Of a stretch of DNA of 64,000 bases, positions 15,131-22,723 are shown piece by piece. The notes beneath the pieces were generated by a model that worked only from the letters and a program-made list of their open reading frames with translations, was not told where the DNA came from and did no database searches. The translations under genes were made by a program, and so were the position numbers. The stretch's first letter is position 1. Each line of letters starts with the position of its first letter. Where the stretch lies: the NCBI GenBank assembly GCA_018267655.1, contig JAFDYB010000086.1, positions 186,001 through 250,000 of the forward strand, given 5' to 3'. This DNA is from Bacteroidota bacterium. Lineage in GTDB: Bacteria > Bacteroidota > Bacteroidia > B-17B0 > Aurantibacillaceae.

Positions 15131-16309
15131 TTATTTATTTGTTTTTCTGTTATTTATTTCTGTTTTTAATTTATTTAATTCATCATTTATTTGTCCGTTA
15201 ATGGAAGTGTTTTCTTCTGAACGTCGAATTAAATATGGAATAGCTTTTTTAACTTCACCATAAGGTAAATATTTAGAAACACTATATCCACTAGCTGCTA
15301 AATTAAAAGTAATGCCATCGCACATACCATACAGTTGCGAAAATCGTACTTTATTTTGCACATCAGTAATATTATATTTTTGAATACAATCAATAGCTAG
15401 TTGAGTACTTGCATAATTATGAGAAGCTATACAAGTAGCAATATTTGCGTGATTACTTAAACATAATTCTACGGCTGTATTAAATGATTTATCTGTTTGC
15501 TCTTTAGTATCAAATACAGGCGATTCTCTGTTTTCTTTTTTTGCACTTTCTCTTTCTTTCTCAACATAAGCACCGCGCACTAATTTTATTCCCGGAGTGT
15601 ATTGTTTTTGTTTAGCATTTGCTATTAAATTCTCTAAATAATTTACTCTATCTTTTAGATACATTTGCAAGGTGTTAAATACAACTACTTTTTCTTTATT
15701 ATATTTTTCCATCATTGCCTCTACAATCACATCTATAATGTCTTGCATATATCTATCTTCTGCATCAATATATATCACAACATTGCTTTCTTTAGCTGTG
15801 CTACAAATTAAATCAATACGCTCATATAATTTGTCAAATCGAGGTTTTAAAGTAGCATCTGTAGGAAATTGACGGGCGTTGCATTTCCCAAGAAATTCAG
15901 TATCCTCTAAGCCCGTAATTTTTACACTAATATAATTATTAGGACATTCTTTCCCAACGCGCTGAATATTAGATACAATTATTTTAGTGTTTACTTCAAA
16001 AGCAGCTTCTGATTTTTCTCCTTCATTAACATAATCTAAAACAGATTTTACCTGATAAGTATCTAAGTATTTAATTAATTGAAATGCCTCGTCAATTGTT
16101 TCTCCAGCACAAAATAATTTAAAAATTGTTTTTTTAATAATAGCCTTAAAAGGTAGATTATATTTTACAATACCGTTAGCGCAACCTTTTAGCATTCTTA
16201 ATAATATTGGTTTTTGAAGAGTATTAAAAATGAAATATGTTAACTTTAAATCAGCGGTACTTTTATACTTATAAGCTGTTTTTAAATCTTGAAAATTTAC
16301 AGAGTTCAT
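15131..16309 (-). CDS. Proline dehydrogenase
   Basis: A 392-residue single-domain flavoenzyme that oxidises proline to pyrroline-5-carboxylate and passes electrons to the quinone pool at the inner membrane. Diagnostic parts are the FAD/TIM-barrel strands VVIYIDAEDRYMQD, KLVRGAYVEKERE, a late RFSQLYGMCDGITFNLA, and the C-terminal PYLIRRSEENTS (the substrate-binding RRxxEN of PutA/ProDH). The length is normal for the monofunctional form. Unusually it lies 10 nt after a NorB-like gene in an amino-acid lyase operon. No P5C dehydrogenase is in the operon; the aldehyde dehydrogenase at 26.7 kb belongs to another group. Confidence 0.93.
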   Translation of the reverse strand: MNSVNFQDLKTAYKYKSTADLKLTYFIFNTLQKPILLRMLKGCANGIVKYNLPFKAIIKKTIFKLFCAGETIDEAFQLIKYLDTYQVKSVLDYVNEGEKSEAAFEVNTKIIVSNIQRVGKECPNNYISVKITGLEDTEFLGKCNARQFPTDATLKPRFDKLYERIDLICSTAKESNVVIYIDAEDRYMQDIIDVIVEAMMEKYNKEKVVVFNTLQMYLKDRVNYLENLIANAKQKQYTPGIKLVRGAYVEKERESAKKENRESPVFDTKEQTDKSFNTAVELCLSNHANIATCIASHNYASTQLAIDCIQKYNITDVQNKVRFSQLYGMCDGITFNLAASGYSVSKYLPYGEVKKAIPYLIRRSEENTSINGQINDELNKLKTEINNRKTNK

Positions 16310-16319
16310 ACGTTTTATT

Positions 16320-17651
16320 TTAATTATTGATAATATTTTTAGAAACGTTTTTTAATAATTTAGAAGCTATTGTTATAAACGAGGCTATCAATCCTATTCC
16401 GGCAATTATAAATACAATAAAATAAGGATGCAATGATTCCATCATTTTAGAATAACTAATCTGTTGCTCACTCATTTGCCACAATCCTTTTTTTATGCCT
16501 GCTATATTTAGTGCTACCCAGAATATAAGCAAGAAACCTTGTAAAAACCAAAAGATAATATTTAGTGAATTAAATGATTTTGTATCATTTTTTATATTTG
16601 GTTTTAAAAATTCAAAACAAGCCGCTAATAAAATCATGCTATTAATGCCTATAGTAGTTCCCATAGAGTGAGCCACAGTTACATGTGTGCCATGCGTATA
16701 AATATTAATAGCCGGAATTGACATTAAGATGCCTCCAAATAAATTTAAAAACACCCATATATCTGATGCCATTAAAAACTTATAAGGAAAATAGTGATAA
16801 TGCTTTTGAATTGTATTTACGGTTGATTTCCAATCAAAAAATATTTTAATAAAAATAATCCACTCAGTCATACTTACAAAGTAGCCAACATAACGAATAT
16901 ATTTTTCTGTAGGTAGTGTATAAACATGATGCCCCCAATTAAACATTAAATTAAACAATCCTAAAAAATACATAGCAAAAGCTAAATTATTTTTTCCTAC
17001 ATTTTTTGTTTTTGTGATTCTATCCATCAAGAAAAATGCAGTACCGTAAATCATTTGATTCCATGAGCCTACTAAAGAACCGCTTACTTTCCACTGAATG
17101 GTCATATCAGTTATAAAGTGTTCTCTAAAATAAGGAAAAAGCCATAAATAATTTTCTATAAATATGAATAGAAAAAAAGTAACACCTGTAAGCCACATCC
17201 ACATATATACTGGCCATTTTTTTACTTGAGTAATGTGCGAGTAAAAATTAGATAAAAACAATATCCACGCTATAGCTATTGGCAAGGCCCAAATAGGATT
17301 AAATTCCCAATACTCTCTCCCACCAAAATGATGCGTAAAATAAGAAATAAAAATTCCTACAATCGCAACAATCCATAATATCCATTGAGTAATTGCTATT
17401 TTATTTGTAACGTTTTGCTTTGTTACTACCCTTAATCCATTATATACACAACCTGTAGCTCCTAATATAATCCAAAATAAAGCCGACGAAACATGCAAAG
17501 GTCTTAAAGCAACAAAACCAAGTTGATCTTTTAAAAAATCAGGATATATGTAAATGAATGCTGCTAACAAGCCAAAGCTTATGCCTATCAACAACATAAT
17601 AATTGCTGTAACTAAAAATAAATTACCTATGTTGATTTTATTTATGTTCAT
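16320..17651 (-). CDS. NorB-like haem-copper oxidase superfamily protein, altered active site
   Basis: 443 residues, about 12 membrane segments, the size of cytochrome-c-dependent NorB. Shared with NorB: RPLHVSSALFW (haem-b ligand His53), GREYWE, GHH (His241-His242) and THGTHVTVAHSM (His328, expected haem-b3 ligand). Aligned with recalled Pseudomonas NorB, spacing from WE/WN to GHH is identical. On that alignment NorB His207, Glu211 and Glu215 become Ser190, Val194 and Asn198 (KVSGSLVGSWN), and His349 becomes Met330. The non-haem metal site thus lacks a histidine and its glutamates, so nitric oxide reduction is doubtful. It may transfer electrons, sense NO or do another reaction. It overlaps the NorC-like gene by 14 nt. 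Confidence 0.85.
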   Translation of the reverse strand: MNINKINIGNLFLVTAIIMLLIGISFGLLAAFIYIYPDFLKDQLGFVALRPLHVSSALFWIILGATGCVYNGLRVVTKQNVTNKIAITQWILWIVAIVGIFISYFTHHFGGREYWEFNPIWALPIAIAWILFLSNFYSHITQVKKWPVYMWMWLTGVTFFLFIFIENYLWLFPYFREHFITDMTIQWKVSGSLVGSWNQMIYGTAFFLMDRITKTKNVGKNNLAFAMYFLGLFNLMFNWGHHVYTLPTEKYIRYVGYFVSMTEWIIFIKIFFDWKSTVNTIQKHYHYFPYKFLMASDIWVFLNLFGGILMSIPAINIYTHGTHVTVAHSMGTTIGINSMILLAACFEFLKPNIKNDTKSFNSLNIIFWFLQGFLLIFWVALNIAGIKKGLWQMSEQQISYSKMMESLHPYFIVFIIAGIGLIASFITIASKLLKNVSKNIINN

Positions 17652-18060
17652 GCCCTTCTATCATTCCAAAATTATCTTGAGTAAAAGTCCTTGGATCGGA
17701 TGTTCCGCTAGCATCAGTTGATTTTAAAAATTCAACTAATTCTTGCATTTCATTTTCAGATAAATTAAAAGCTGGCATTTGTTTAGAGCCTGTTTTAACC
17801 ATTGCTTTAATTAAATTTTCGCCCTTTTTAGGATGAGAATAAACATTAGTTAAATCTGGCCCAAGATAACCTCCTAATCCATATAATTGGTGACAAGCTT
17901 GACAGTTATACTTTTGCCAAACAAGTCTTCCCTCTGCTGCTGTTTTTTTATTAAATCTTGCATCTTCATTCTCTGAAAGAGGTTTCATATAGATACTAAT
18001 AGAATAAGCTAAAAACAGAACACTTAAGAAGAAGAAAGTATGCCGAGCTTTTAATTTCAT
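17638..18060 (-). CDS. NorC-like membrane-anchored cytochrome c
   Basis: A 140-residue protein. One N-terminal membrane segment (about residues 9-25) anchors a periplasmic cytochrome c domain. The haem-binding motif is CQACH (Cys53, Cys56, His57), followed by QLYGLGGYLGPDLTNVYSHP, typical of NorC. The likely Met ligand is in SKQMPAFNLS. The C-terminal tail is His-rich (EGHEHK). In cNOR complexes NorC delivers electrons to NorB. The gene lies directly before and overlaps the NorB-like gene, so they should form a two-subunit complex, although the large subunit's active site is altered. Confidence 0.9.
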   Translation of the reverse strand: MKLKARHTFFFLSVLFLAYSISIYMKPLSENEDARFNKKTAAEGRLVWQKYNCQACHQLYGLGGYLGPDLTNVYSHPKKGENLIKAMVKTGSKQMPAFNLSENEMQELVEFLKSTDASGTSDPRTFTQDNFGMIEGHEHK

Positions 18061-18069
18061 GTTTTAGAA

Positions 18070-19455
18070 CTATTTTAATTTTTCAAATCTAGCTTGAAAG
18101 AATCTTAAATATTTTGGTTCATAAATCATTTTTAATCCTTTGATAGATTTTCTGTTTTCAAAAACAGTAGCTGCCGATTCGGCAATTACATCCATGTGTG
18201 CTTGTGTATAAACCCTTCTTGGAATAGTAAAACGTACTAGTTCTAATTTTGGATAATAATTTTCTCCGTTTGTTTTTCTACCTGCAGAAACAATACCTCT
18301 TTCCATTGTTCTAACACCTGAATCAATATATAATTCAGCCGCCAAGGTTTGCGCCGGAAATTGATCTTGTGTTAAGTGTGGCAAAAATGCTTTTGCATCT
18401 ACAAATATACCATGACCACCAATAGGCTTTACGATTGGTAATCCATACTCTAACATTTTATGTCCGAGGTATTCTACTTGTCCTACACGAGCACGTTGAT
18501 GATCATCATTTAAACTCTCTACAATACCAACAGCAATTGCTTCCATGTCACGACCGGCTAAACCGCCATAAGTATGCAGCCCTTCATAAACCACTACTAA
18601 ATTTCTTGCTTCTTCAAAAACGTCCCAATCGTTAGTAGCCATAAATCCACCAATATTAACCAAGGCATCTTTTTTAGCACTCATAGTTGCGCCATCAGTA
18701 TAAGAACAAATTTCCTTTACAATACTTTGAACACTTTTTTTCTCGTACCCTTTTTCACGTTGCTGGATAAAGAAAGCATTTTCAGCTACACGCGTCATAT
18801 CATGAATAATTTTTATTCCATGTTTTTTGGTGTAAGCTCTTAGTTCTTTTAAATTAGCCATGCTTACTGGCTGACCACCAGCCATGTTTACATTAGTAGC
18901 TACACATATATAAGGGATTTTTTTAGCACCGTGTTTTTTTACTAACTTGTCTAATTTTTCAATATCTACATTTCCTTTAAATGGATGTTCGCTTAATGGA
19001 TCGTGCGCTTCATCAATAATCACATCAGCAAAAATACCGCCAGCTAACTCTTGGTGTAAGCGAGTAGTTGTAAAATACATATTGCCCGGAATAATATCTC
19101 CTTTTTTAATCATGATTTGAGATAAGATATTTTCAGCAGCTCTACCTTGATGAGTTGGTACAATATACTTATAGCCATAATATTTTTGAATAGTTTCTTC
19201 TAAAATATAATAACTCTTACTTCCTGCGTAAGCCTCGTCTCCAGTCATAAAAGCACTCCATTGACGGTCGCTCATAGAATTAGTCCCGCTATCAGTTAAC
19301 AAATCAATATACACGTCTTCTGATTTTAAAAGAAAGGTATTATACCCTGCTTCTTTAATAGCCTTAGTACGTTGTTGCTTAGTGGTCATTTTTAATAGCT
19401 CAACCATTTTCATTTTGTATGGTTCTGCCCACGAGCGTTTTTTGATATTTTTCAT
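18070..19455 (-). CDS. tpl: Tyrosine phenol-lyase
   Basis: A 461-residue PLP enzyme that splits tyrosine into phenol, pyruvate and ammonia in the cytoplasm. Family features: THQGR near residue 100, the PLP-binding SAKKDALVNIGG, DMTR, and IPRRVYT. Points that favour tyrosine over tryptophan: GNMYFTTTR (the Thr contacting the phenol OH), VRTMERGIVSAGR (the Arg contacting the OH; tryptophanases have VEIGS here) and the C-terminal LRFFQARF (Phe-Phe; tryptophanases have LRHF). It lies 17 nt downstream of the tryptophanase paralogue and 9 nt upstream of the NorC-like gene. Specificity is inferred from these residues. Confidence 0.88.
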   Translation of the reverse strand: MKNIKKRSWAEPYKMKMVELLKMTTKQQRTKAIKEAGYNTFLLKSEDVYIDLLTDSGTNSMSDRQWSAFMTGDEAYAGSKSYYILEETIQKYYGYKYIVPTHQGRAAENILSQIMIKKGDIIPGNMYFTTTRLHQELAGGIFADVIIDEAHDPLSEHPFKGNVDIEKLDKLVKKHGAKKIPYICVATNVNMAGGQPVSMANLKELRAYTKKHGIKIIHDMTRVAENAFFIQQREKGYEKKSVQSIVKEICSYTDGATMSAKKDALVNIGGFMATNDWDVFEEARNLVVVYEGLHTYGGLAGRDMEAIAVGIVESLNDDHQRARVGQVEYLGHKMLEYGLPIVKPIGGHGIFVDAKAFLPHLTQDQFPAQTLAAELYIDSGVRTMERGIVSAGRKTNGENYYPKLELVRFTIPRRVYTQAHMDVIAESAATVFENRKSIKGLKMIYEPKYLRFFQARFEKLK

Positions 19456-19472
19456 ATGCGTTGTTATTATGT

Positions 19473-20870
19473 TTATTTTATTGAGTAATTAATTTTATCT
19501 AATCTAGCTGTGAAGTGTCTTAAAAATGGAGGTTCATACGTTATTTTATAACCTGTTGTTTGATTTTTTAAAGCAAGTATATCATCAAAAATATCTAACA
19601 CGTAATCAATATGACTTTGAGTATATACTCTTCTTGGAATAGCTAGTCGCACTAACTCATTAGTTGCAGGAATTAATTTTCCGTTATCATCATATTTTCC
19701 AAACATCAAGCTTCCAATTTCCACACAACGAATACCTCCTTTTGTATATAAATCACACACCAAGGCTTGTCCGGGATATTGATCTACAGGAATATTACTA
19801 TACAGCTGTTTAGCATCAACATAAACAGCATGTCCGCCAATTGGCCAAACAACAGGAACTCCTTTTGCTTTTAACTTTTCTCCTAAATAAGCTGTACTTC
19901 TAATACGGTAATGTAAATAATCTTCGTCAAATACTTCTGTAAGCCCAATTGCGAGTGCTTCCATATCACGTCCAGATAATCCGCCGTAAGTTGTAAAGCC
20001 TTCAGAAATGATTAATAAATTTTTGCATTTTACAGACAGTGCTTCATCTTTTACTGTTAATAATCCGCCCATATTAACCATACCATCTTTTTTAGCACTC
20101 ATAATGAATGCGTCACCTAGATTAAGCATTTCTTGTGCAATTTCTTTACAAGATTTATCAGCGTATCCATCTTCGCGGTGTTTAATGAAGTAAGCATTTT
20201 CAGCTACACGGCAGCCATCAATTACTAAAAGAATATTATTATCAGTACATATCTTTTTTAGAGCCTTAGCATTAGCCATACTTACAGGCTGGCCACCAGA
20301 TGAATTATTTGTAACCGTTAAAACAACGGCTGCAATATTTTCTTTTCCATGTTTTTTAATAAGCTCTTGCAGTTGCTCTAAATGAATATTTCCTTTAAAA
20401 GGTAAATCTGTTTCAGGATTTTTTGCTTCATCATAAACAATATCAATAGCTGTAGCTCCTGTAAATTCTATATTTGCACGAGTTGTGTCAAAATGCGTAT
20501 TACTAATAAATATTTTATCTTTTCCACCTAAGATACCATACAAAATTCTTTCAGCAGCACGTCCTTGATGAGTTGGTAAAATATAAGGCATGCCTGTTAA
20601 GTCTTTTACAACCGATTCTAAATGTTCCCAACTTCTTGCTCCTGCGTAGCTTTCATCACCCATCATAATACCCGACCATTGCTTGTCGCTCATTGCACCG
20701 GTTCCGCTATCCGTTAAAAAATCAATAAATACATCGCTTGAGCTTAATAAAAAAGGATTGTACCCTGCTTTTTTTAAGACATTTTTTCTGTACTCTTCGG
20801 TAGTTACTTTTAGGGGTTCAACCATTTTTATTTTAAATGGCTCTGTTAATGTTCTCATTTTCTCACTCAT
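19473..20870 (-). CDS. tnaA: Tryptophanase (tryptophan indole-lyase)
   Basis: A 465-residue PLP enzyme releasing indole, pyruvate and ammonia from tryptophan. It shares the beta-eliminating-lyase core with its neighbour: PTHQGRAAERIL, NSSGGQPVSMANAKAL, IDGCRVAENAYF, and the PLP lysine in MSAKKDGMVNMGG. Tryptophanase-type residues are NTHFDTTRANIE (Asp after Phe), IRCVEIGSLMFG and the C-terminal LRHFTARLDK (His). The side-by-side placement of both lyases, in one operon, is unusual. Gaps are 29 nt to the upstream 607-residue protein gene and 17 nt to the tyrosine phenol-lyase gene. No tryptophan permease or TnaC-like leader is visible upstream. Confidence 0.9.
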   Translation of the reverse strand: MSEKMRTLTEPFKIKMVEPLKVTTEEYRKNVLKKAGYNPFLLSSSDVFIDFLTDSGTGAMSDKQWSGIMMGDESYAGARSWEHLESVVKDLTGMPYILPTHQGRAAERILYGILGGKDKIFISNTHFDTTRANIEFTGATAIDIVYDEAKNPETDLPFKGNIHLEQLQELIKKHGKENIAAVVLTVTNNSSGGQPVSMANAKALKKICTDNNILLVIDGCRVAENAYFIKHREDGYADKSCKEIAQEMLNLGDAFIMSAKKDGMVNMGGLLTVKDEALSVKCKNLLIISEGFTTYGGLSGRDMEALAIGLTEVFDEDYLHYRIRSTAYLGEKLKAKGVPVVWPIGGHAVYVDAKQLYSNIPVDQYPGQALVCDLYTKGGIRCVEIGSLMFGKYDDNGKLIPATNELVRLAIPRRVYTQSHIDYVLDIFDDILALKNQTTGYKITYEPPFLRHFTARLDKINYSIK

Positions 20871-20899: not shown

Positions 20900-22723
20900 T
20901 TATATTTTTTGTAGTTTATCTATATCAGGCGCAGGCAACAATTGATTAACCGCTTCCTTTATAGTACTTAATAGTTGTAAATTAGAATTAGGAAAAATAG
21001 GTTCAGCATTTTTCACTTTTTCATAGAGCGTTTCATAGTATGCAATTCCTTCAGCTAAATTTTTCTTAAATGATTGGAAGTAAGAAGCGTTTCTAGTTGA
21101 AATTCCAATTTTTAATTTTTCAAATTCTTTTCTAAAATAATCAATGTATAATTCTAATTCATTAATAAAACAATTGGGACGAAATGTTTTATTTAATAAG
21201 AACTCTCTTCCATAAATATGATTAACCATCTGCTTTAAGCTAAAAGTTCCTGAAAAATACACTAAGTTAGGTCCGGGGCAAATAGCAACAGCAGTTAATC
21301 CATGCGATAATTTTGCATCGTTTACAATAAGTGCAGATGTGCCCAAGCCTTCGCATAAGCAATCTTTTTCTAATACTTGTTCAATTTTCTTCTCTAAGAT
21401 AAATGGGTCTTTTTCAATTGCTTCTAATTGTTCAATTTTTAATTTCTGATATTGACGAGAAGCAGTACAAATTACTTTGTCTGTAAACTCTGTATTGTTA
21501 GATAAAAATTTTTTATAACAAGGACTACCTGCTCTGTTTTTATTAATACGATATTTTCTTTGTATTTCAGAGGTACTCAATCTAAAATTATTAAATGGAA
21601 CTCCAAGTGGTGAAGAGTGGCTTAAATAATAATCTTCTTTTTTTGCATGTGATAGTTTTTGCAGAGTGTCTTTATCAACAGTGGTTGCTTCTGATACCAA
21701 TAAAAAAGGACTTCCCCAACCAATAGAATCTAAATTATAGTATTCTAATAAAAAATTATGCTCTACATTATTTCCTATTCCACCTTGAGCTGTAATTTTT
21801 AATTGCGGTTTTTCTTTAAATTCAAGTCTATTTTGTTTTGATAGAGCATTAGAACATTCCATATAAATTTCATTATATAATGTTTCTCTTTTTGTTTTAA
21901 AGTCTTCTAAAATAGGCCCAAATAAACCTCCATCTGTAATAAAAGCATGTCCTCCACAATTAATACCAGATTCTATTCTAAATTCAGAAACCCATAAACC
22001 TTTTTTGGCTAAATATTTCCCTTGTATTAATGCTGAACGATAATCACTTACTTTTAGTACAATTTTTTTCTTTATAATTCCATTTTCATCAGGATAAAAA
22101 TCAGCAAATTTTTCGCAGTAACTAAATAGTCTTGGATTTAATCCGGCAGAGAAAATAATTGAGGAGTTAAGCGTACTATTAGCATAACCTCTTAATGCTG
22201 CCATTGCATCACAATACTCTGGAGGAAGTTCATTGCCAGCCTTATCATAATTAGTTTTATCTAATTTTGTCATGATATTTACATCTATTGAACCGGCAAT
22301 GATTTTTTTTCTTAGATTTTGTATTGCTAACTCTTTTTCTTTGGAGTTAAGTGTATTTAATAATAAATACGTTTTCTTTACCTTAGAGTCATCAGGTAAC
22401 ATCTGAAAATATTTTTTTATATCTTCATCATTTTCAAAATCAGCATTCCTGATTTCATTAATTTGTTCTTTAACTATTTCATTTAATAAGTTAAGATATG
22501 CCGTTATTCTTTTTGCTCGATAATCAATATCCTTCTGTTCTATTTTCTTATAATTGATATTTTTTGCATTACTCACACATTCTCTCATTTGTTCTATTAA
22601 TTCATCTTCCATAATAGATACAACACTAGAAATACCATACTTTGCAACCTTAATAGGCGTATCTATGGTAAATGCTAGACCCATTACAGGTATGTGGAAA
22701 TTATGAAATGACTTTTTTTGCAT
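20900..22723 (-). CDS. Uncharacterised nitronate-monooxygenase/FMN-barrel-like protein
   Basis: 607 residues, first gene of the seven-gene operon, cytoplasmic (no signal). I do not recognise a named family. The N-terminus IPVMGLAFTIDTPIKVAKYG, the middle ESGINCGGHAF (compare the GGH loop of nitronate monooxygenases), and AQGGIGNNVEHNFLLEYYNL, then GWGSPFLLVSEAT, resemble FMN-dependent TIM barrels of the nitronate monooxygenase/PfaD type. A long helical insert (about 45-150) separates the first strands. The C-terminal third has conserved-looking cysteines (GSPCYKKF, VICTASR, DCLCEGLG, AICPGPN) that could bind a metal cluster or act in catalysis. The substrate is unknown. Confidence 0.6.
   Translation of the reverse strand: MQKKSFHNFHIPVMGLAFTIDTPIKVAKYGISSVVSIMEDELIEQMRECVSNAKNINYKKIEQKDIDYRAKRITAYLNLLNEIVKEQINEIRNADFENDEDIKKYFQMLPDDSKVKKTYLLLNTLNSKEKELAIQNLRKKIIAGSIDVNIMTKLDKTNYDKAGNELPPEYCDAMAALRGYANSTLNSSIIFSAGLNPRLFSYCEKFADFYPDENGIIKKKIVLKVSDYRSALIQGKYLAKKGLWVSEFRIESGINCGGHAFITDGGLFGPILEDFKTKRETLYNEIYMECSNALSKQNRLEFKEKPQLKITAQGGIGNNVEHNFLLEYYNLDSIGWGSPFLLVSEATTVDKDTLQKLSHAKKEDYYLSHSSPLGVPFNNFRLSTSEIQRKYRINKNRAGSPCYKKFLSNNTEFTDKVICTASRQYQKLKIEQLEAIEKDPFILEKKIEQVLEKDCLCEGLGTSALIVNDAKLSHGLTAVAICPGPNLVYFSGTFSLKQMVNHIYGREFLLNKTFRPNCFINELELYIDYFRKEFEKLKIGISTRNASYFQSFKKNLAEGIAYYETLYEKVKNAEPIFPNSNLQLLSTIKEAVNQLLPAPDIDKLQKI

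Follow-up and report, generated by a model that had tools for sequence, protein, structure and literature searches.

The window analysed here is a stretch of 64,000 nucleotides from the genome of a member of the Bacteroidota, and it carries a gene pair resembling norC and norB of the cytochrome c-dependent NO reductases (cNORs). The pair and the genes surrounding it are all located on the minus strand.

15131..16309, minus strand: proline dehydrogenase gene, downstream of the NorB-like gene and a neighbour in 17 loci
16320..17651, minus strand: NorB-like or C-type haem-copper subunit, 443 aa, with 12 predicted TM helices (open reading frame, Pfam COX1 match and AF2 model)
17638..18060, minus strand: NorC-like membrane-anchored monohaem cytochrome c, 140 aa (CQACHQ motif; Met ligand in KQMPAF)
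18070..20870, minus strand: two tandem beta-eliminating lyases of the tryptophanase type, 461 and 465 aa, upstream of norC
20900-22723, minus strand: conserved protein of 605 aa with no Pfam family (cluster c13); in about 19 loci it accompanies nadA/nadB, tryptophanase and the NorCB-like pair

A sequence-only reading had placed the NorB-like gene at these coordinates, and a check of the open reading frame confirmed them, with the frame on the minus strand. The start of this gene overlaps the end of the upstream NorC-like gene by 14 nt, and the latter is separated from the first lyase gene by a gap of only 9 nt in the window. The first lyase was identified by Pfam and the second by its neighbour cluster (c11). 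The proline dehydrogenase gene is probably only a syntenic neighbour. No signal was obtained for FNR/DNR-like or NsrR-like palindromes upstream of norC, which were present in 1 of 44 and 0 of 44 cases, respectively.

The NorB-like protein matches the Pfam COX1 family with an E value of 5e-33 and a score of 115 bits, compared to a cut-off of 34.8. This match, together with the 12 TM helices, assigns it the predicted fold of subunit I of the haem-copper oxidases (HCOs), although the histidine sextet is incomplete. No NCBIfam model scores over its cut-off for this protein, the nearest being ccoN (TIGR00780) with 44 bits against 583. By sequence, its best solved relatives are NorB (4xyd, E value 2e-16; 3o0r) and CcoN. 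An AF2 model built with 39 family sequences has a mean pLDDT of 86, a pTM of 0.90 and 12 long helices, and structural comparison (Foldseek was also run) finds the model about equally similar to CcoN of cbb3 oxidases and NorB of cNOR, with Z scores of 38-40 over 415-433 residues.

Ligand positions at the metal and haem sites

Residues were placed by aligning a profile of the family with Pseudomonas NorB (3o0r) and by an hhalign comparison with a profile of five Bacteroidota cNORs. The counts below refer to rows of the family alignment, whose 52 rows include the window gene twice, as itself and as locus L048.

17493..17495, minus strand: codon of H53, low-spin haem b ligand, kept (His in 51 of 51 rows)
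17154..17156, minus strand: codon of E166, at the periplasmic end of TM5 as judged from predicted helix ends (Glu in 52 of 52)
17088..17090, minus strand: codon of K188, in TM6 near the metal site (Lys in 52 of 52)
17082..17084, minus strand: codon of S190, at the position of the FeB ligand His207 by profile alignments; Asn in most relatives
17070..17072, minus strand: codon of V194, at the Glu211 position by profile alignments (Val in 49 of 52)
17058..17060, minus strand: codon of N198, at the Glu215 position by profile alignments (Asn in 52 of 52)
16926..16931, minus strand: codons of H241-H242, the remaining metal-site histidines (His in 52 of 52)
16668..16670, minus strand: codon of H328, haem b3 proximal ligand, kept (His in 51 of 51)
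16662..16664, minus strand: codon of M330, at the position of the haem-b ligand His349 by profile alignments (Met in 51 of 51)

Both profile methods set position 190 opposite His207, V194 opposite Glu211 and N198 opposite Glu215. The segment from W197-N198 to G240-H241-H242 aligns with NorB free of gaps by either method, as had been proposed from the spacing of these motifs. In the same alignments, the second His of the HxH motif is matched by M330, the haem-b3 ligand by H328 and the other haem-b ligand by H53. The earlier assignment, in which S190, V194, N198 and M330 take the places of His207, Glu211, Glu215 and His349 while His53 and His328 remain, is therefore confirmed, with the profile search and hhalign in agreement. 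When the comparison is made with CcoN of cbb3 oxidases, which has the 'QW' before the site in common with the family, helix VI is shifted by one residue and G191 comes to lie opposite the CuB His. The exact register of helix VI is thus uncertain by one, and in neither of the aligned registers does a His or Glu appear at the site.

The histidine sextet is treated as a signature of haem-copper enzymes. Four of the six histidines are kept in this family (H53, H241, H242 and H328), with Met330 and Ser/Asn190 at the other two positions, and from the FeB and catalytic set of cNOR (His207/258/259, Glu211 and Glu215) only the equivalents of His258 and His259 are retained. The simplest reading of these residues is the one already suggested for the window gene, namely a haem b with His53 and Met330 as its ligands and a metal site composed of H241 and H242. 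The GREYWE sequence is kept at the place of the haem-bridging Ca-site motif of NOR and cbb3 enzymes, as is E263, the equivalent of Glu280, in 52 of 52 rows. The retention of these two features suggests that both haems are probably present.

Losing His207, Glu211 and Glu215 together should cripple the known chemistry of cNOR, which counts against NO reduction by the complex. The protein might be an essentially ordinary NO reductase in which E166 of TM5, K188, or both, complete a non-haem iron site of two histidines and one carboxylate. Both residues are invariant (52 of 52). E166 belongs to IENYLWLF, a sequence named in the earlier reading as a possible source of a metal-site residue; judged from predicted helix ends, its depth in the membrane is similar to that of position 190, and the gene context described below is one of nitrogen-oxide metabolism. 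However, the cbb3 residue aligned with E166 is the Asn of HIVNNL, and TM5 in known HCOs is located beside, not inside, the ring of helices around the binuclear site. We consider such an enzyme improbable, while E166 itself might possibly serve as a substitute metal ligand or form an ion pair with K188.

Other histidines were considered as substitute ligands. H320 and H323 are both invariant and precede the b3 ligand by 8 and 5 residues. In known HCOs, this stretch is on the propionate side, and another HCO group likewise has a His at −5; we infer that neither residue ligates FeB. H178, located in the sequence FREH, was rejected since it is not conserved.

Conservation and relatives of the family

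One scan of GTDB genome contigs yielded 45 relatives that are 42-78% identical to the NorB-like protein, all but one of which are titled Bacteroidota. Cultured carriers include Flavobacterium filum, F. piscinae, Pararcticibacter amylolyticus and Chitinophaga silvisoli. Among the total of 51 relatives, again all but one titled Bacteroidota, M330, N198, H53, H241, H242 and H328 are constant. Asn occupies position 190 in 44 of the 52 rows, Tyr in five, Ser in two (both of them the window gene) and Ala in one. Ser190 is therefore private to the window gene and the position is tolerant, whereas Met330, Asn198, the loss of both glutamates and the loss of the third FeB histidine are features of the family as a whole. 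By comparison, the canonical cNOR and qNOR proteins of Bacteroidota keep HLWVE...E and HxH, and with them all ligands.

The family makes up one side of a branch with SH-aLRT support of 99 in a tree built from 111 HCO rows, and a long branch sets it apart from cNOR plus qNOR, CcoN and others. Its nearest neighbour in this tree is unsettled because long branches meet there. A separate clade that keeps Ser, Val, Asn and Met at the four positions had been named as a result that would support the earlier view; this is borne out with regard to the clade, the fixed Met330 and Asn198 and the loss of both glutamates, but not with regard to Ser190, for which Asn is the usual residue.

The long branch to all known HCO groups could be taken to mean that the gene is a degenerate, misaligned or mis-assembled NorB. 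However, the same changes are present in 51 relatives, the two profile methods agree and the structural model is confident. Furthermore, pairwise dN/dS values of approximately 0.03-0.2, for pairs with unsaturated dS, indicate purifying selection, which argues that the residue changes are not due to chance or decay. The conservation data refute this explanation, to which we give almost no credence.

With cNOR (NorCB), the family shares the 12-TM NorB fold, an adjacent c-type cytochrome of the NorC type, the GHH pair, the haem b3 His, the GRE..E motif, Glu280 (E263) and a denitrification neighbourhood. It differs from cNOR by lacking His207, Glu211 and Glu215, by having Met in place of the haem-b ligand His349, by the NorC motif (CHQLYGLGGYLGPDLTN in the family versus CHTILGEGAYYAPELTK), by the lack of any observed dependence on NorQ/NorD, and by forming a clade separate from that of cNOR and qNOR. 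Its resemblance to CcoN of cbb3 oxidases is seen in a structural Z score of 39.8 (the closest, along with cNOR) and in the LRPLH, QW and GKEY/GREY motifs common to both. Unlike cbb3 oxidases, the family lacks the third histidine of CuB (G191 in that register), has Met for a haem-b His and is accompanied by a single c-type cytochrome, with no ccoO or ccoP recognised among the neighbours in the gene maps.

The study by Murali et al. is said to be the one that defines the nNOR, gNOR, sNOR, eNOR and bNOR families and their specific ligands. These are likewise HCOs with modified active sites for which NO reduction has been either proposed or demonstrated. They have been described as related to the B family (PMC11388526), and this description sets them apart from the present family, which is C-family or NorB-like. 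An open-access literature search found no description of the family. Matches in a plasmid collection are distant (about 25% identity) and come mainly from Alphaproteobacteria; these are probably other C-type HCOs.

In putative NO dismutases (NODs), one coordinating histidine is replaced by Asn and one Glu by Gln (PMC3413370). The family is similar in that the FeB histidine is mostly Asn (Asn190 in 44 of 52 rows) and the catalytic Glu has become an amide residue (Asn198/Gln199), which would be in keeping with a NOD-like enzyme that converts 2 NO to N2 and O2. Such a function is very unlikely. NODs are relatives of qNOR that keep all other histidines and the haem ligands and have no electron input, whereas the present protein has Met330 at a haem-b His position, lacks the qNOR N-terminal domain in its 443 aa and is partnered with a NorC-like cytochrome c. 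In addition, NOD chemistry would circumvent NosZ, with which the family is associated.

Three further groups of sequences were observed among the loci examined. Another divergent haem-copper group of Bacteroidota (L058, L060-L066 and L071), with proteins of 480-570 aa, carries THFTHYTIAHSH and NHHMTV motifs. A distinct qNOR subclade, characterized by HMWxEAFFEVF and EHGxYLTxNHxH, is represented by L079 (G383), L104 (G407), L106 (G421) and L086 (G168), and its members in G383 and G407 are located a few kb from the NorCB-like pair. Finally, an aa3-type COX1 match on a single contig (G422:C76, L166) contains 11 in-frame TGA codons and is probably mitochondrial or foreign DNA binned into the assembly.

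Denitrification setting of the gene pair

The NorC-like gene adjoins the NorB-like gene in 51 of 54 loci according to neighbour clustering, and the remaining loci are truncated at contig ends. Genes repeatedly found near the pair are nadA/nadB, tryptophanase pairs and those for a truncated globin, RIC/ScdA, an Rrf2 regulator, proline dehydrogenase and the 605-aa protein. A distance of 5-16 kb separates the pair from nosZ on the same contig in 13 genomes, and genes for a nosC-like cytochrome, nosZ, a nosL-domain protein, nosD, nosF and nosY lie between or beside them, with nosD/F/Y named from inspection of their sequences rather than by model search. Three genomes have the order nirK ... norC-norB-RIC-norQ-norD-norC'-norB', where norC'-norB' is the NorCB-like pair; in two genomes the pair is beside a qNOR, and in Flavobacterium odoriferum (G424) the pair, nos, nor and nirK are all found within one 26-kb stretch. 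The pair therefore belongs to a denitrification setting, an observation new to this analysis.

Two other features of these neighbourhoods were noted. The nadA-nadB genes are located directly upstream of the pair in distant lineages (L125, L126, L029-L033 and L080; Flavobacterium and others), hinting that NAD synthesis is functionally linked to the NorCB-like complex. Also, a membrane protein of about 400 aa with no Pfam match, whose HTHSH..LGW sequence recalls haem-copper helix X, recurs near Bacteroidota nos and nor genes (L080:14049-15269, and L005, L025, L030, L033, L039 and L137).

Co-occurrence was assessed in an even sample of 395 Bacteroidota genomes, which includes eight family carriers, 127 genomes with nosZ, 64 with nirK and 49 with a canonical cNOR or qNOR, the last counted by reading of the matches. 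All eight carriers have nosZ, compared to 127 of 395 genomes overall (Fisher p = 1e-4, ignoring shared ancestry). Canonical NORs show no such link to nosZ (19 of 49, p 0.33), and the family is not significantly associated with nirK (3/8, p 0.12) or with canonical NOR (3/8, p 0.06), shared ancestry again being ignored. Among all 53 carriers, nosZ scores over the cut-off in 43, a canonical cNOR is present in 10 and a qNOR-like protein in six; nirK occurs in 18 of the 45 carriers fetched by locus. The carriers with NorQ (PF08406) are precisely the 10 that have a canonical cNOR; the other 43 lack it. This maturation factor follows canonical cNOR only, and the metal site of the NorCB-like complex may consequently not be filled as in cNOR.

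The genome from which the window derives is 99.95% complete. It encodes NirK (343.6 bits, compared to a cut-off of 296.3) and NosZ (917 bits, over the cut-off). Its only three PF00115 proteins are a CcoNO, the NorB-like protein and an aa3 oxidase whose HPEVY site is intact, with no other NOR among them. If this organism makes NO from nitrite and reduces N2O, the NorCB-like pair is the only NOR-like candidate for the step in between. As a general argument, however, this filling of a gap is weak, because nirK without a canonical NOR is common (36 of the 64 nirK genomes in the 395-genome sample lack cNOR and qNOR) and only one of those 36 carries the family. We therefore do not rely on it as the main argument. 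An earlier survey found the same kind of gap, with a third of the Bacteroidetes that have both nirK and nosZ scored as lacking norB (PMC4250227).

Proposed role of the NorCB-like complex

The strong link is to nosZ rather than to nirK or nor, and a role other than NO reduction would account for this association too. The pair might form a non-catalytic or weakly catalytic haem protein that serves NosZ as an NO or redox sensor, an NO-binding guard or an electron-transfer complex, in which the active site has been emptied while electron transfer and ligand binding at b3 are left. The tolerance of site 190 (N/Y/S/A), the lack of any remaining His or Glu on TM6 and the missing NorQ in genomes without cNOR are consistent with this possibility. 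Yet H241, H242, H328, N198, E263, E166 and K188 show no variation at all, a degree of constraint beyond what a relay or sensor would require. Moreover, an HCO core fed by cytochrome c has no obvious exit for electrons besides a substrate, and the subunit carries no fused signalling domain. On balance we regard such a role as possible but less likely than the explanation favoured below, although it deserves more weight than the other alternatives.

The sequence-only reading held that normal NO reduction is not to be expected from this protein. The ligand replacements on which this view is based are real, but the context is one of nitrogen-oxide respiration (nosZ, nirK, nor, RIC and Rrf2) and the protein is the sole NOR-like candidate between NirK and NosZ in its host. 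The family, which is not named in the sources searched, is probably part of nitrogen-oxide respiration in Bacteroidota. Our tentatively favoured explanation, held at slightly less than even confidence, is that the pair encodes a NorCB-like complex that functions in NO/N2O respiration beside clade II NosZ, with the family belonging, on the genomes sampled, to the Bacteroidota.

In such a complex, electrons from cytochrome c would enter through haem c of the NorC-like subunit and pass to the low-spin haem b, presumably held by His53 and Met330, and from there to the high-spin haem b3, which H328 is predicted to bind. A diatomic nitrogen oxide, most likely NO, would be bound at b3 and most likely be reduced to N2O beside the two-histidine site (H241 and H242) without the canonical glutamates. 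The outcome would be either a supply of N2O to NosZ or the removal of NO that would poison NosZ. A bolder version of this proposal, which is possible but which we hold with more doubt, is that the complex represents a new class of NO-reducing HCO, with a His/Met haem b and a metal site of two histidines (or two histidines and one carboxylate), dedicated to N2O-respiring Bacteroidota and either supplying or protecting NosZ.

Which residues are truly required for NO reduction would be put to the test by a c-type NOR that lacks His207, Glu211, Glu215 and one haem-b histidine. If the proposal is true, NO reduction by so altered a complex would overturn the rule that turnover by HCOs requires the full histidine sextet. 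NosZ, with which the family travels, destroys the greenhouse gas nitrous oxide, and many Bacteroidota with nirK or clade II nosZ have been scored as lacking norB (PMC4250227). If the pair consumes NO, models of N2O emission would place some Bacteroidota scored in this way in the wrong class; otherwise, the error would lie with pipelines in which the NorB-like gene is counted as norB.
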